This document shows positions 28,502-62,801 of a stretch of DNA of 64,000 nt, piece after piece (position 1 is the stretch's first letter; the number at the start of each line of letters is the position of its first letter). The translations under genes were made by a program, and so were the position numbers. The DNA comes from [Flavobacterium] thermophilum (GTDB taxonomy: Bacteria > Bacillota > Bacilli > Bacillales > Anoxybacillaceae). Under the pieces are notes generated by a model that was given only the letters and a program-made list of their open reading frames with translations, was not told the origin of the DNA and searched no databases. Location of the stretch: NCBI GenBank assembly GCA_900450595.1, contig UGGS01000001.1:682001-746000 (forward strand), read 5' to 3'.

Positions 28502-28921
28502 GCGTTAATCATGCTCGGGTAATCGCTGCGGCCGGTTTCGGCCGTAGAGGAAAGTCCATGCTCGCACGGTGCTGAGATGCCCGTAGTGTTCGTGCCTAGC
28601 GAATCCATAAGCTAGGGCAGCCTGGCTTCGGCTGGGCTGACGGCGGGGAAAGAACCTACGTCCCGGCTCGGGATATGGTTCGATTACCCTGAAAGTGCCA
28701 CAGTGACGGAGCTCTAAGGGAAACCTTAGAGGTGGAACGCGGTAAACCCCACGAGCGAGAAACCCAAATGATGGTAGGGGCACCTTCCCGAAGGAAATGA
28801 ACGGAGGGAAGGACAGGCGGCGCATGCAGCCTGTAGATAGATGATTACCGCCGGAGTACGAGGCGCAAAGCCGCTTGCAGTACGAAGGTACAGAACATGG
28901 CTTATAGAGCATGATTAACGT
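28502..28921 (+). ncRNA. rnpB: RNase P RNA, Bacillus (B) type
   Basis: This is the catalytic RNA of tRNA 5' processing. Recognisable conserved pieces are GGGTAATCGCTGCGG at the 5' side, GAGGAAAGTCCATGCTCGC, the GAACCCAAAT-like GAGAAACCCAAATG, ACAGGCGGCGCATG... and the 3' GGCTTATAGAGC. The 5' GTTAATCATGCTC (28504-28516) pairs with GAGCATGATTAAC (28907-28919) to close P1. Length ~420 nt fits the B type. No RNA polymerase terminator lies inside. Confidence 0.97.
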
Positions 28922-36215: not shown

Positions 36216-36304
36216 CCTTTCATCCCTCCTCGTGCGTTTTGGATTCATCCCCCATAACGTTGACAGGCAGGTGCGCCAAGCGCGAGTTTCCCTGCTTTGA
36301 CACT

Positions 36305-36347
36305 ATCATAACCGTACAAAACGGCCGCAACAGTGACTTTTCTCACA
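36305..36347 (-). promoter_or_regulatory. oxidase operon promoter with an Fnr-like box
   Basis: Minus strand: TGTGA-GAAAAG-TCACT (36347-36332), CTGTTG (36333-36328), 17 nt, TATGAT (36310-36305). The box matches TGTGA-N6-TCACA in 9 of 10 positions, and its centre lies about 41.5 bp before the predicted start site, the class II activator position. The rest of 36216-36513 shows nothing else. Confidence 0.6.
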
Positions 36348-36513
36348 AAAACAACACAAGAAGTTTGAACAAATGGTGACGATTGTGAACAATGTAGGAA
36401 AAGGGCGGGAAGGAAAAAGGCGGCGGATCCGTCTGATGAGGGACAGCGGCAACGGTTTTGTCCCGGACAGAACCGGAACGAAGATAGCTGACGGCAAAGG
36501 AGGGTAAAAACGA

Positions 36514-36597
36514 ATGATTAATTATTTTTTTTATTTAATGTTCGTTTTTTTATTAAAAACCGCTTCTCATCCGCTGCCTTCCATGGTATACTGCTAG
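36514..36597 (+). CDS. putative 27-residue hydrophobic peptide
   Basis: AAAGGAGGG lies 8 nt before the ATG. The frame reads MINYFFYLMFVFLLKTASHP and ends LPSMVYC. Its last codons overlap the -10 of the riboswitch promoter. The T-rich middle also pairs with flanking A-rich sequence as a possible terminator, so the open frame may be fortuitous. Confidence 0.3.
   Translation: MINYFFYLMFVFLLKTASHPLPSMVYC
36564..36592 (+). promoter_or_regulatory. promoter of the purine riboswitch transcript
   Basis: TTCTCA (36564-36569), 17-nt spacer, TATACT (36587-36592). Confidence 0.55.
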
Positions 36598-36616
36598 TAA
36601 CTGAATCACGCTGACT

Positions 36617-36687
36617 CACTCATATAATCGCAAGAATACGGCTTGCGAGTCTCTACCAGCCGACCGTAAATCGGCTGACTATGAGTG
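36617..36687 (+). promoter_or_regulatory. guanine-class purine riboswitch aptamer
   Basis: P1 is CACTCATA (36617-36624) with TATGAGTG (36680-36687). The core has the consensus pieces TATAATCGC, GAATACGGC, AGTCTCTACC and GACTATGAG. P2 is GCAAG/CTTGC and P3 is AGCCGA/TCGGCT. The specificity base in GACTATG is C, which selects guanine/hypoxanthine over adenine. In Bacillus this aptamer turns off xpt-pbuX by forming a terminator when guanine binds. Here the terminator is split by an IS and the genes lie 1.9 kb further on. Confidence 0.93.
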
Positions 36688-36741
36688 GCAATGTCGGAAG
36701 GGAGTCGGCCATGGCCGCTTTGCGCCTTCTGTTTGCTTTTG

Positions 36742-36755
36742 GCTTAAAAGACATT
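36742..36755 (+). other. left half of the split riboswitch terminator
   Basis: GCTTAAAAGACA plus TT of the loop. It is complementary to TGTTTTTTAAGC at 38553-38564; the 1794-bp element sits in the 5-nt loop (TT|CGG). Confidence 0.8.
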
Positions 36756-38549
36756 GGGGCTGACCCAAAAGTCCGCCAAAAAGCGGACTTTTGGAGTCAG
36801 CCCTCTCTGGTTTTTGTATATTTTACCAAACGGAACAAAATTCCGACTCTGTTCTCCCCCTCATTTACGCCACCAAGGACAATTGCTTGTCCCTAGCGGC
36901 TTTTTTGAGAAGATTGTGGGCAGCACAAACCAGCCCCCATTCGATGGAAACTTTTTGGAGGCCTCGCAGGACAAAGCGACGAAACCCGCGATTTTGTTTG
37001 ATTTGCCCAAATACACTCTCAATGTCGGTTTGGCGTTGGCGGTATCGGGCTTGCCCTTCTTCACTCTCCAACCGTTCGCGGGCTTTCTGTTTTTGTTCAT
37101 GATAGACGGGGTTCCATTGCGTGGTTCGTCCATACTTGGAAGTCGTGCAGGCCGAACGGAACGGACATCCTTCGCATTCATGGCATTGGTAGTGTCGGGT
37201 GACCGAGGTGTATCCTGATTCCGTGGTCTGTTTCGAAGTTCCGGTGCGAACCAGCTTTTTCCCATTGGCGCAAATCCAAACGTCTTCTTCTTCCACATAG
37301 GTCCAATTCTGCTGATGATGCGGATTTTTCTTGACCTTGCGCGTGTTCTCCTTCTCATACGTATGGTACTTGATCAAGGCCGATATGTGCTTCTCTTCCA
37401 GCTTCACGTAGTTCTCTTCCGAGCCATAAGCCGCGTCAGCGATCAAACGTTCGGGTTCCACGCCGTACTTCTCTCGAACGGTCTCCAAATGCGGGAGAAG
37501 ACAACGAGTGTCGCCCGGCCTCTGATGAAGGGAATACCCCAAAATAAATTGGCCGGAAGAACCCACCTGTACGTTATAGGCCGGCTTGAGCTGGCCGTTT
37601 CGCATGTGATCCTCCTTCAACCGCATGAAGGTGGCATCCACATCGGTCTTGGAATAGCTGTTGCGATCCCCGCATACATGGAGTTGGTGTTCATACTTTT
37701 CACTGCGGGGCAAGTAGTCCTCCTTCATCTTCTTGATGGCCTTCTTCAACGGTTGGTTGTCCGGCTCGGCCTCCAACCGTTTTTCCCACTCCTCGGTTTT
37801 CTTTCGGATTTCTTCTGACGTAAAGGCCGGCGAAGGGTCGATGTCTTCCGCCTTTTCTTCTTCCACGATCGCCTCGATCTGGGCAATCAGCCGATCGACA
37901 TTGGCTTGGAGTTTCTCCTGGTACTTCTCAGCCGATTTGCGCCAAACGAAGGTGTACCGGTTGGCATTCGCTTCAATTTTCGTTCCATCCACAAAATAAT
38001 CTTCCATCTTGACATAGCCGTCGGCCACGAGCAGCGTGATCATTTCCCGGAACAGGTCGTCAATCAGGTCTTTCATCCGCTCCGAACGAAACCGATTGAT
38101 GGAGCGGAAGTCCGGCTTTTGAAATCCACTTAGCCACATGAGGGGAAGGTGGACTTCGAGCTGCCGTGCAATCTCACGGCCATGATACATTTTTTGGGTG
38201 TAAGCGTAAAGGAGAATTTTGGTCATCATTTTCGGATGATAGGCGGAGGCGCCCCCTCCTTTGTAGTAAGCAAGAAACGTCTCCATCGGGATGCGTTCAA
38301 CCATCTCATGAACCACGTGGGCCATGTTATCCCGTGGAATGAGATCGGCGATGTTGCTTGGCAAAGAGAGGTTGTCCATGGTATACTCTTTAAAGGAAAT
38401 ATGATCATGTTTCATAAAAGAATCGCCCTTCTTTCGGTGGTAGTGGTTTTGGTGACTCTATTCTACCAGAAAAAAGGGCGATTCTTCTATATTTGAGGCA
38501 AAAAAGTGGGGGCTGATCCCAAAACGCATTCGCGTTTTGGGTCAGCCCC
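36756..38549 (-). mobile_element. IS1182-family insertion sequence, copy 2 (1794 bp)
   Basis: Same length and terminal repeats as the copy at 1078-2871; the only differences noticed are at 38380 and 38486. No target duplication (catt on the left, cggt on the right). It is inserted in the loop of the intrinsic terminator that belonged to the purine riboswitch. Its right-end palindrome (38509-38549) followed by GGTGTTTTTT could itself stop transcription. Confidence 0.96.
36865..38415 (-). CDS. IS1182-family DDE transposase, copy 2
   Basis: 516 residues with the same amino-acid sequence as the product of the copy at 1187-2737; the one noticed coding difference (38380) is synonymous. DDE residues and the C-terminal Cys cluster are as described there. 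It is transcribed against the direction of xpt, so it should not drive that gene. Confidence 0.95.
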   Translation of the reverse strand: MKHDHISFKEYTMDNLSLPSNIADLIPRDNMAHVVHEMVERIPMETFLAYYKGGGASAYHPKMMTKILLYAYTQKMYHGREIARQLEVHLPLMWLSGFQKPDFRSINRFRSERMKDLIDDLFREMITLLVADGYVKMEDYFVDGTKIEANANRYTFVWRKSAEKYQEKLQANVDRLIAQIEAIVEEEKAEDIDPSPAFTSEEIRKKTEEWEKRLEAEPDNQPLKKAIKKMKEDYLPRSEKYEHQLHVCGDRNSYSKTDVDATFMRLKEDHMRNGQLKPAYNVQVGSSGQFILGYSLHQRPGDTRCLLPHLETVREKYGVEPERLIADAAYGSEENYVKLEEKHISALIKYHTYEKENTRKVKKNPHHQQNWTYVEEEDVWICANGKKLVRTGTSKQTTESGYTSVTRHYQCHECEGCPFRSACTTSKYGRTTQWNPVYHEQKQKARERLESEEGQARYRQRQTDIESVFGQIKQNRGFRRFVLRGLQKVSIEWGLVCAAHNLLKKAARDKQLSLVA

Positions 38550-38570
38550 CGGTGTTTTTTAAGCTTTTTT
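38550..38570 (+). other. right half of the split riboswitch terminator
   Basis: CGG of the loop, then TGTTTTTTAAGC (38553-38564) and a T-run, ending 19 nt before the xpt start. Confidence 0.8.
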
Positions 38571-38588
38571 ATTTTGGAGGGGATTGGC

Positions 38589-39176
38589 ATGCGCGAATTG
38601 CTCGAAAAAATTGCCGCTGAAGGAGAGGTGCTGGCCGGCGGGGTGCTGAAAGTCGACCGCTTCTTAAACCATCAAGTCGACCCGCATTTGATGAAGCGGA
38701 TTGGGGAGGAGTTCGCCGCCAAGTTTCACTGTGAGCGGCCGACGAAAGTGCTGACGCTTGAGTCATCGGGCATCAGCCCGGCACTTATGGCTGCCTATGA
38801 ACTTGGCGTTCCTCTTGTCGTTGCCCGCAAGCGGCGGCCAGTGACGATGGCCGACGATGTATACCGCGCGGAAGTATATTCGTTTACGAAGCAGGAGACG
38901 AACGAGATCGTTGTTTCCCGTTCGTTGCTTAACAGCGGTGACCGGGTGCTCATTATCGATGACTTTTTAGCCAACGGCCAGGCAGCGCTTGGAATGACGG
39001 AGATTGTCCAACAAGCCGGCGCGGTTGTCGCCGGCATCGGCATCGTCATTGAAAAGGCGTTTCAAGACGGCGGGCGATTGCTTCGTGCGCGCGGCTTCCG
39101 CGTCGTATCGCTCGCCTGCATCGCGTCGCTTGATGGTGGTGTCATTCAATTTGCTGACGAGGTGATGAGTCAATGA
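38589..39176 (+). CDS. xpt: xanthine phosphoribosyltransferase
   Basis: A 195-residue type I phosphoribosyltransferase that converts xanthine to XMP with PRPP. The PRPP-binding motif is [17 protein letters not shown], and the N-terminus [32 protein letters not shown] and [26 protein letters not shown] are family hallmarks. ATG 38589 follows TTGGAGGGGATTGGC. It overlaps pbuX by 4 nt. The usual riboswitch control is broken by the IS just upstream, so expression now depends on what transcription crosses or starts within the IS end. Confidence 0.96.
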
Positions 39177-40480
39177 AGATGAAATGGTGGCAAGTTGGAT
39201 CACTCGGCATCCAACACGTATTGGCGATGTACGCCGGGGCGATCGTCGTTCCGCTTATCGTCGGCGGGGCGTTGCATTTGACGAGCGAACAGCTGACGTA
39301 TTTAGTGGCCATTGACTTATTGACGTGCGGCATTGCGACGTTTTTGCAAGCGTGGAAAAACAAGTGGTTTGGCATCGGCTTGCCGGTTATGCTTGGCTGC
39401 ACATTTACGGCGGTCGGGCCGATGATCGCTATTGGCGGACAGTACGGGATGCCGGCAGTGTATGGGGCGATCCTCTGCGCCGGAGCGGTTGTGGTGCTCA
39501 TCAGTCCGTATTTCGGCAAGTTGCGGACGTTGTTTCCGCCAGTTGTCACCGGCTCGGTCGTGACCATTATTGGCTTGACGCTCATCCCGGCGGCGGTGAA
39601 CAACATGGCCGGCGGGCAAGGGGCAAAAGACTTCGGCGATCCGGCCAACTTGGCGCTGTCATTTGGCGTCCTGGCGCTGATTATCTTGCTGTATCGTTGT
39701 TTTACAGGATTCATCCGCTCGATCTCTGTTTTGCTTGGCATGGCAGCCGGAACGTTTGCCGCGGCCATGATGGGAAAAGTGGACTGGACGCCGGTTGCGG
39801 AAGCGTCATGGCTTCACTGGCCGACGTTGTTTTACTTTGGCGCCCCGACGTTTCATGGGTCTGCTGTTTTCACCATGGTGCTCGTCGCGATCGTCAGCCT
39901 TGTCGAATCGACCGGCGTTTACTTTGCTTTGTCGGACATTTGCCGCCGCCGGCTGACCGATGACGATTTGGCGGGCGGCTACCGCGCTGAAGGATTGGCC
40001 ATCATCATCGGCGGGCTGTTGAACGCATTTCCGTATACGACGTATTCGCAAAACGTCGGACTTGTTCAGCTATCGGGCGTGAAAACGCGCAATGTCATTT
40101 ACGCTGCCGCGGCGTTTCTTGTCCTGCTTGGATTTGTGCCGAAAATCGCCGCCGTGGCGACAATCATCCCAGCGCCGGTTTTAGGCGGGGCCATGCTCGC
40201 TATGTTTGGCACGGTCATCGCCTACGGCGTGAAAATGTTAAGCCAAGTCGATTTGGCTATGCAAGAAAACTTGCTGATCATTGCTTGCTCGGTCGGCATA
40301 GGGCTTGGGGTGACGGCGGTGCCGAACTTGTTTGCTGAGCTTCCGGCGGGCCTGCGCATTTTGACGGACAGCGGCATCGTCGCCGGCGGCCTCACCGCCA
40401 TCCTTTTAAATGCCGTCTTCCATTTCGGCAAGGCGAGAAAATCGGCTGCACTGCCGTTGCAGGAACAAAAAATTTCATAA
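39173..40480 (+). CDS. pbuX: xanthine permease
   Basis: A 435-residue NCS2 nucleobase transporter with 12-14 helices. Motifs are [47 protein letters not shown], the substrate-binding signature [19 protein letters not shown] [19 protein letters not shown], and [23 protein letters not shown]. It imports xanthine for xpt, and its start overlaps the xpt stop (ATGA). No clear terminator was found before 40600. Confidence 0.95.
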
Positions 40481-40631: not shown

Positions 40632-41705
40632 ATGGATGAATGGGTGGAGCGCCTTTTCGATGAGCTGCGGCAAATACGGAATCAGATGGCGACCAAACAG
40701 GATGTTGTGCGGGTGAATGATCGCATCGATCGGCTTGAACAAACGGTGAGCGCGACGAAAGAGGATGTTGCGCGGTTAAATGGACGCGTCGGGCAACTCG
40801 AAGAGACCGTGGCAGCGACGAGAGAAGACGTTGTCCGGATGAATGATCGCATCGGGCGGCTTGAGCAGACCGTGGCAGCGACGAGAGAAGACGTCGCAGC
40901 GCTGGATGAGCGCATCGGGACTATCGAGCGGACGATGGCAACGAAAGAGGATGTCGCAACGCTGGATGGGCGCATCGGGACTATCGAGCGGACGATGGCA
41001 ACGAAAGAGGATGTCGCAGCGCTGGATGAGCGCATCGGGACTATCGAGCGGATGATGGCAACGAAAGAGGATGTCGCAACGCTGGATGGGCGCATCGGGA
41101 CTATCGAGCGGACGATGGCAACGAAAGAGGATGTCGCAGCGCTGGATGAGCGCATCGGGACTATCGAGCGGACGATGGCAACGAAAGAGGATGTCGCAAC
41201 GCTGGATGAGCGCATCGGGACTATCGAGCGGACGATGGCAACGAAAGAGGATGTCGCAGCGCTGGATGAGCGCATCGGGACTATCGAGCGGACGATGGCA
41301 ACGAAAGAGGATGTCGCAGCGCTGGATGGGCGCATCGGGACTATCGAGCGGACGATGGCAACGAAAGAGGATGTCGCAACGCTGGATGGGCGCATCGGGC
41401 AACTCGAAGAGACCGTGGCGGCTAACAGAGACGACATTGCGGCGCTCGACAGCCGGATTGGGCGCATGGAACAAACGATGGCGACGAAAGAGGACGTTGC
41501 CGAATTGCCGTTTATTCGCCAAGCTGTCGTGGAAACGTTAGAAACGCTCCGTGAAATTCCGGCAATGAAACAAACCCTCACAGAAACGCAACAAAAAGTC
41601 AATGAAGTCATTGCCGGACAAGCCCGGCAAGAGCTCGTGCTTCAATCCCTCGCCTTGCACTTGCTTGAGCATGAAAGCGAAATCCGCGCACTCAAAGCGA
41701 AGTAA
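40632..41705 (+). CDS. coiled-coil protein built of 20-residue repeats
   Basis: This 357-residue soluble protein has no signal or membrane segment. The N-terminus (MDEWVERLFDELRQIRNQMATKQD) leads into repeats of the type EDVAALDERIGTIERTMATK. The outer repeats are 21 residues (three heptads) and more diverged; the eight central ones are 20 residues and nearly identical. The C-terminal ~80 residues (LPFIRQAVVETLETLREIPAMKQ...) are non-repetitive but also helical. It is preceded by AAAGGGGGTGAAACG. Function unknown; it could be a rod-like scaffold. There is no counterpart at this place in B. subtilis. Confidence 0.88.
   Translation: MDEWVERLFDELRQIRNQMATKQDVVRVNDRIDRLEQTVSATKEDVARLNGRVGQLEETVAATREDVVRMNDRIGRLEQTVAATREDVAALDERIGTIERTMATKEDVATLDGRIGTIERTMATKEDVAALDERIGTIERMMATKEDVATLDGRIGTIERTMATKEDVAALDERIGTIERTMATKEDVATLDERIGTIERTMATKEDVAALDERIGTIERTMATKEDVAALDGRIGTIERTMATKEDVATLDGRIGQLEETVAANRDDIAALDSRIGRMEQTMATKEDVAELPFIRQAVVETLETLREIPAMKQTLTETQQKVNEVIAGQARQELVLQSLALHLLEHESEIRALKAK
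40921..41400 (+). repeat. 60-bp tandem repeat, eight units
   Basis: Eight consecutive 60-bp units are almost identical. Variation is nearly confined to gcagc/gcaac and gatgag/gatggg, giving AALDE, ATLDG, AALDE, ATLDG, AALDE, ATLDE, AALDE, AALDG type alternation. A single gatgatggca variant occurs at 41051. The unit is in frame in all forward phases, so no stop arises in two other frames. Confidence 0.97.
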
Positions 41706-62648: not shown

Positions 62649-62801
62649 GGGCTGGCCCAAAAGAGCGGTAATGCTTCTATCTGGCATAATATGAAAAAGT
62701 AGACCACCACGAAAAACCCGGTAAAACCAAGGGTTTCAGAGGTGGTCTCTTTCCCATGCTTCGGTTGCATTTCATCAAAAAGGGGCTTTTGAGTCAGCCC
62801 C
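62649..62801 (-). mobile_element. 153-bp MITE, copy B
   Basis: Inverted relative to copy A at 57550-57702, of equal length and with scattered substitutions. Ends are GGGCTGGCCCAAAAG and CTTTTGAGTCAGCCCC. The flanks GAAGAC and GTTTTC can pair, as at the IS1182-type insertions. Confidence 0.9.

Follow-up and report, generated by a model that had tools for sequence, protein, structure and literature searches.

An insertion sequence (IS) of the IS1182 family has quite probably exchanged the apical stem-loop of the xpt terminator for itself, in a hairpin swapping that recurs at other sites, and the conditional switch of a guanine riboswitch was thereby lost. The DNA analyzed, hereafter the window, is a 64,000-nucleotide stretch covering positions 682001-746000 of contig C1 of assembly G000, the genome of a heat-loving host apparently of the Geobacillus type. 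Sequence comparison demonstrates, as set out below, that the stem-loop was replaced, that both switch helices are lost and that the exchange recurs elsewhere.

An IS element in place of the apical stem-loop of the xpt terminator

The features of the xpt-pbuX leader and of the element within it are listed here; terminator scores (d) were computed throughout with the d'Aubenton Carafa formula, uncalibrated for Geobacillus.

36501..36599, + strand: native promoter region, with an extended -10 TATACT ending at 36592 and a -35-like TTCTCA at 36564
36600..36701, + strand: guanine-class purine riboswitch aptamer, intact (RF00167, 87.2 bits, gathering score 37, full model 1-102)
36681..36695, + strand: ATGAGTGGCAATGTC, the 3' strand of P1 plus extension, able to pair with GACATTGCCtgACTCAT in G007 (predicted antiterminator)
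36742..36755, + strand: 5' remnant of the terminator stem, GCTTAAAAGACATT, from comparison with relatives
36756..38549, no strand given: IS1182-family IS, 1794 bp, replacing a 25-bp apical stem-loop without target duplication
36756..36804, no strand given: left-end hairpin of the IS, palindrome of ~48 bp, with inward T-rich tail TCTCTGGTTTTT
36865..38415, - strand: transposase, 516 aa (DUF772, DDE_Tnp_1, DDE_Tnp_1_6)
38497..38565, + strand: predicted chimeric terminator joining the right end of the IS to the 3' arm of the former terminator, with tail TTTTTATTTT and d = 27.4
38508..38550, no strand given: right-end hairpin of the IS, palindrome of ~41 bp, -36.9 kcal/mol
38550..38564, + strand: CGGTGTTTTTTAAGC, left over from the 3' arm of the native terminator stem and followed by T6, from comparison with relatives
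38589..39176, + strand: xpt, xanthine phosphoribosyltransferase, intact
39173..40480, + strand: pbuX, xanthine permease, intact

The complete guanine-class aptamer and the 1794-bp IS1182-type element preceding xpt, both recognized in a first-pass annotation of this DNA, were borne out by model matches. The GACTAT motif of the aptamer has a C at the specificity position, which we take to be C74. The native promoter matched at 9 of 12 positions in a scan for promoter-like motifs, which returned four sites in 36300-38800 versus a mean of 2.0 (standard deviation 1.4) after shuffling; inverted ACGAA/TTCGT motifs upstream of the xpt promoter resemble a PurR box, and are noted as a candidate. No second close xpt was found in the main contigs of G000, the only other close copy being located on the low-quality contig C5.

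The IS ends in the terminal inverted repeats GGGGCTGACCCAAAA and TTTTGGGTCAGCCCC, and its transposase matched the NCBIfam IS1182 model NF033551 with 454.1 bits (cut-off 270). Full-length copies numbered 10 in G000 (one of them on the doubtful contig C5) and five in G007, with 99.8-100% identity, and G012 harbored a single full-length copy with 98% identity; because the full-length copies are near-identical, the element is, to judge from them, recently active. A second copy in the window itself, at 1078-2871 (L009), is 99.9% identical and likewise replaces a hairpin.

Thirteen further genomes make up the genus set, and eight of these yielded an aptamer-xpt leader (G001, G002, G006, G007, G008, G009, G011 and G012), all of them from species other than that of the window strain. 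Among the purine-riboswitch loci fetched from G003, G004, G005, G010 and G013 none matched xpt, and the G005 genome had no RF00167 match. The xpt leader of the eight relatives is nearly invariant and free of the IS, each starting with GCTTAAAAGACATT, which leads into a 25-26-nt apical stem-loop, and continuing with CGGTGTTTTTTAAGC and a run of T's. In the window the apical stem-loop is gone and, by flank alignment, the IS occupies exactly its place. GCTTAAAAGACA and TGTTTTTTAAGC, which pair across the IS as had been proposed for the two halves, form, in the eight relatives, the lower part of the terminator stem. The insertion had been assigned to a 5-nt loop; the supposed loop bases proved to be mid-stem, with the 25-26-nt apical stem-loop in that position in the relatives, and the hairpin that all eight carry is longer than the first-pass annotation had deduced. 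Automatic flank alignment at xpt returned exactly this closed hairpin as the lost segment. This exceeds chance expectation, with 15 of 3000 length-matched segments drawn at random from the window folding as stably. On these comparisons, the 25-bp apical stem-loop is replaced by the IS at xpt, and no target sequence is duplicated.

On the same footing, both alternative structures of the switch, the antiterminator and the guanine-dependent terminator, are broken at xpt. The computed duplex between ATGAGTGGCAATGTC and GACATTGCCtgACTCAT amounts to -19.5 kcal/mol in G007. In the window, 11 of the 17 bases of GACATTGCCtgACTCAT are gone and six are kept, and the best duplex of ATGAGTGGCAATGTC with this remnant reaches -10.6 kcal/mol. 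The antiterminated state would be lost as well because the apical stem-loop took these 11 bases with it. The earlier interpretation, in which the IS lies in the regulatory terminator and abolishes its guanine-dependent form, is partly supported. Sequences for both helices are present in all eight relatives, and in the window the alternative antiterminator and terminator helices that follow the aptamer in an xpt-type riboswitch are both broken by the IS.

The window leader (36600-36755) is 100% identical to that of G007 over 157 bp, whereas xpt is just 86% identical and the promoter region looks clearly diverged. Such identity despite diverged surroundings would reflect either strong constraint or a short recombined tract.

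Predicted consequences for xpt-pbuX expression

We propose that the IS recognized the xpt terminator hairpin as DNA and inserted in place of its apical stem-loop, losing 25 bp of the target and duplicating none of it, just as at other sites it swaps hairpins, mostly terminators, for itself. Because both IS ends are hairpins, the A/T tracts left over from the target can turn them into terminators again, and at ordinary gene ends the exchange would be nearly harmless. At xpt, the guanine switch was lost because the exchanged hairpin was conditional, resulting in an aptamer without an expression platform, a terminator stem split into halves 1.8 kb apart and a predicted ligand-independent terminator before xpt. 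Constitutive termination at this point would lead to low xpt-pbuX expression from the native promoter.

We infer that guanine no longer controls xpt; transcription from the native promoter probably ends within the IS, to which it is antisense, or else at the chimeric terminator. The suggestion that the IS right end and the T tract could form a new terminator is upheld by prediction, the extended 69-nt form of the chimeric hairpin (38497-38565) scoring 27.4, whereas the native G007 terminator reaches 28.6. Without the extension, the right-end hairpin has a score of -13.0, and xpt (L001) was one of the two sites that failed first-pass terminator scoring (-53 and -8.7), the other being L004. The inward terminator of the IS left end is weak (d = -2.4). 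Six random 1.89-kb stretches of the window contained three + strand sites above 0, so that a lone site of this kind is no great rarity in the window. Because the chimeric hairpin scores almost like the native terminator, silencing of the native-promoter xpt transcript is our better guess, ahead of constitutive expression.

Constitutive expression would ensue if the IS uncoupled xpt-pbuX from guanine without silencing the genes, by way of read-through or of a promoter internal to the IS. We regard this as rather unlikely. The weak left end and the score of the unextended right-end hairpin speak for it, as do the intactness of xpt and pbuX and a promoter-like + strand site within the IS (TTGGCA-18-TATACT at 38358-38387, 10 of 12 matches) that could drive xpt. 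However, the intactness of the genes may just reflect a recent insertion, the extended hairpin scores near the native terminator, and the transcript would carry ~1.7 kb of antisense, untranslated RNA, which is a substrate for Rho. The locus would represent a natural knock-out of a riboswitch expression platform in which aptamer, promoter and genes were left intact by a hairpin-seeking element.

Recurrence of the hairpin exchange at other IS sites

Within the genus, 19 independent insertion sites had both flanks available for comparison. Of these, 15 were occupied by full-length copies (nine in G000, five in G007 and one in G012) and four by internally deleted copies of ~0.70-0.88 kb (L074, L075, L085 and L086, in G002, G003 and G004). 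Empty orthologs were available for 15 of the 19 and none was found for L005, L006, L007 and L075. In all 15 cases, the empty ortholog displayed between the flanks a hairpin-folding segment of 19-33 nt that was absent at the IS copy, and this included three of the four internally deleted copies (L074, L085 and L086). None of the 15 sites showed a target duplication, sequence being lost rather than repeated, and at 11 of them zero flank bases were left unaligned on either side. Between 0 and 93 per 3000 random window segments were as stable as the replaced hairpins, the weakest site being L085; the automatically aligned segments were used, superseding a hand-adjusted set. Twelve of the 15 empty-site hairpins (the exceptions being L004, L008 and L099) exceeded a terminator score of 0. 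The L072 target is a hairpin ~30 bp beyond a tRNA cluster and that of L084 a hairpin ~20 bp downstream of the SRP RNA gene, counted from its 3' end.

Besides tRNAs and the SRP RNA, the purine aptamer was the sole cis-regulator revealed by an Rfam scan of 20 genus loci; 20 wider loci, out of 46 fetched, yielded tRNAs and one DUF805b RNA ~600 bp from the IS end. A single riboswitch target is as expected if hairpins are targeted regardless of their function. The window also contains a complete class B RNase P RNA at 28511-28909.

The copy on contig C5 was excluded from the 19 sites, its flanks belonging to two other copies. This contig of G000 (L118, 15,946 bp) has the IS, followed by xpt-pbuX, attached to the sequence that flanks the C1:856985 copy on its left; it has many indels, and stops in its xpt. 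An ORF in the window at 40632-41705, with about nine tandem 20-aa repeats of the MATKEDVAALDERIGTIERT type, is aligned repeatedly by C5. Two direct IS copies, 138 kb apart, may have recombined to give contig C5 as a tandem duplication or an excised circle, or C5 may be a chimeric low-coverage contig. It is highly improbable that the IS, a repeat present in 10 copies, was placed at xpt by misassembly. The other junction of C5 (left flank of L008, IS, xpt) would allow for this in the form of alternative assembly paths, or else of real rearrangements, but both xpt junctions lie within a 2.47-Mb contig, the right junction is present in both C1 and C5, and the 25-bp loss resembles in kind the losses at the 14 remaining sites, which include some in other genomes.

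Pairing of the two flanks across the IS proved less informative. Left flanks are commonly A-rich and right flanks T-rich (means of 4.58 A and 5.42 T out of 8), and own-flank pairing is for this reason not above that of mismatched flanks: 6.32 versus 6.33 of 12 positions at the 19 Geobacillus sites (xpt itself, 10), with 5506 of 10000 permutations matching the own-flank value. A weak effect was seen in 22 other loci (7.05 versus 6.44; 119 of 10000 permutations). Taken by itself, such pairing would say little, and the argument is carried by the empty sites. It is scarcely credible that the IS entered a loop or some AT-rich site at random, with the loss of the apical stem-loop as a separate event. 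An AT preference alone would give pairing between A-rich left and T-rich right flanks, and own-flank pairing is no better than mismatched, but all 15 empty orthologs have a junction hairpin that is absent beside the IS.

As to target preference, GG.TGTC occurs in six of the 15 replaced hairpins (L002, L008, L009, L074, L085 and L086) and in none of 30 terminator-like window sites selected with a separate score filter, yielding a one-sided exact p of ~0.0006 (by hand) for a motif chosen post hoc and sets gathered differently. A target bias toward GG.TGTC stems is possible. The stricter stem TGTCC..GGACANCC fits four of the 15 targets (L002, L009, L074 and L086) and is found at 21 places in G000 (3.7 Mb; control, 1-2). 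Hairpins of the form GGTGTCC...GGACACC number 23-45 per genome in all 14 genomes, with a reversed control of 0 in each; they resemble other IS1182 ends, such as GGGTGTCTCAAAAG in L153, and may be older solo ends. A terminator-like hairpin at window position 62782 on the - strand (GGGGCTGACTCAAAAGCCCC, then T5) also resembles an IS1182 end.

IS ends as predicted terminators and comparison with known systems

At 13 of the 15 sites the IS end hairpin, taken together with what remains of the target's tract, had an outward terminator score exceeding 0 on one strand or both, compared with 40 of 300 control insertion points drawn at random from the window. Beyond the genus, 26 of the 46 fetched IS1182 loci were inspected by eye. 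Hairpins at both ends were seen in 18 of the 26 (Anoxybacillus, Alkalicoccus, Pedobacter, Dyadobacter, Paraflavisolibacter, Chitinophaga and two MAGs), many with inner T runs and outer A/T tracts; a simple search found no clear ends or arms in eight (L161, L164, L166, L170, L172, L174, L175 and L177).

Short single-end matches to the IS were present in 13 of the 14 genomes (not in G002). Twenty-four solo-end loci in 10 genomes consist of lone hairpins of ~35-49 bp, mostly with A-rich/T-rich flanks (e.g., L093, L104 and L101), and several are mutually orthologous. The strict pattern GGGCTGA..TCAGCCC matched in 13 of 14 genomes, full IS copies included; as the reversed control gave 0-4 per genome, weight is placed solely on matches whose inner bases are IS-like. 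Seven of 19 solo sites were compared with other species. At five of them (L093, L101, L104, L108 and L109), at least one ortholog had a different hairpin between the same flanks, and orthologs of the other two (L082 and L014) gave no clear reading. Either mini-transposition or deletion between repeats of a full IS would fit the solo ends.

We tentatively raise the broader possibility, on which we would not insist, that IS1182-family elements are mobile terminators, whose structure-reading DDE transposase swaps host terminators and favors end-like hairpins, and whose solo ends (~35-49 bp), generated by deletion or mini-transposition, become host terminators, supplying a good part of those of Geobacillus including GGTGTCC...GGACACC. 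If this were true, the xpt riboswitch would illustrate its cost, regulation being lost when a conditional terminator is swapped. Exchange of one terminator for another is expected to be tolerated at gene ends and to do damage mainly where the terminator is regulatory, and the spread and turnover of bacterial terminator sequences would become testable.

Group IIC introns are also drawn to hairpins; as the title of a 2007 study by Robart has it, the intron reportedly inserts after the hairpin. They are not known to replace it. These introns recognize DNA hairpins such as gene terminators (PMC3898094). Like the IS described here, they are mobile elements that find terminator hairpins, but they differ in being RNA-based retroelements.

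Among small dispersed repeats, SPRITE and BOX of Streptococcus pneumoniae come to mind, SPRITE being terminator-like and one BOX lying between two T-box riboswitches that are reported to work still (PMC3049150). Unlike for the window IS, no hairpin-for-hairpin exchange is described for them in the available portion of that article (PMC3049150). A review deems it conceivable that MITEs act as Rho-independent terminators (PMC10969869); in the part of it at hand, IS1182 has 0 occurrences and no exchange of existing terminators is described (PMC10969869). In the open-access literature, subscription journals being mostly outside its reach, the titles and abstract openings among the matches listed included no IS in a riboswitch terminator and no IS1182 ends or solo ends as replacement or mobile terminators.

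A published precedent is IS1272/TnSha1 of staphylococci, likewise of the IS1182 family, which targets hairpins and causes blunt deletion of the stem-loop without duplication; for targets A to E, RNA-seq confirmed that the hairpins are terminators, and the paper, in the sections accessible, cites a review on palindromic targets in the IS1182 family (PMC4923244). The two elements are alike in transposase family, hairpin target, stem-loop deletion and lack of duplication (PMC4923244), a deleted hairpin stem-loop without duplication being found at all 15 of our sites with an empty ortholog. They differ in that the same sections describe no riboswitch target for IS1272, whereas the window IS lies in a riboswitch terminator, and report no primary sequence consensus, whereas GG.TGTC, noticed post hoc, is shared by six of our 15 targets (PMC4923244). 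Those sections are silent on terminator activity of the IS1272 ends themselves. The insertion mode itself is known from IS1272/TnSha1 and the idea of terminator MITEs is already in print; apparently new are IS-end hairpins that, with the target tract, score as terminators, solo ends located where other species have a different hairpin, and the striking of a riboswitch terminator.
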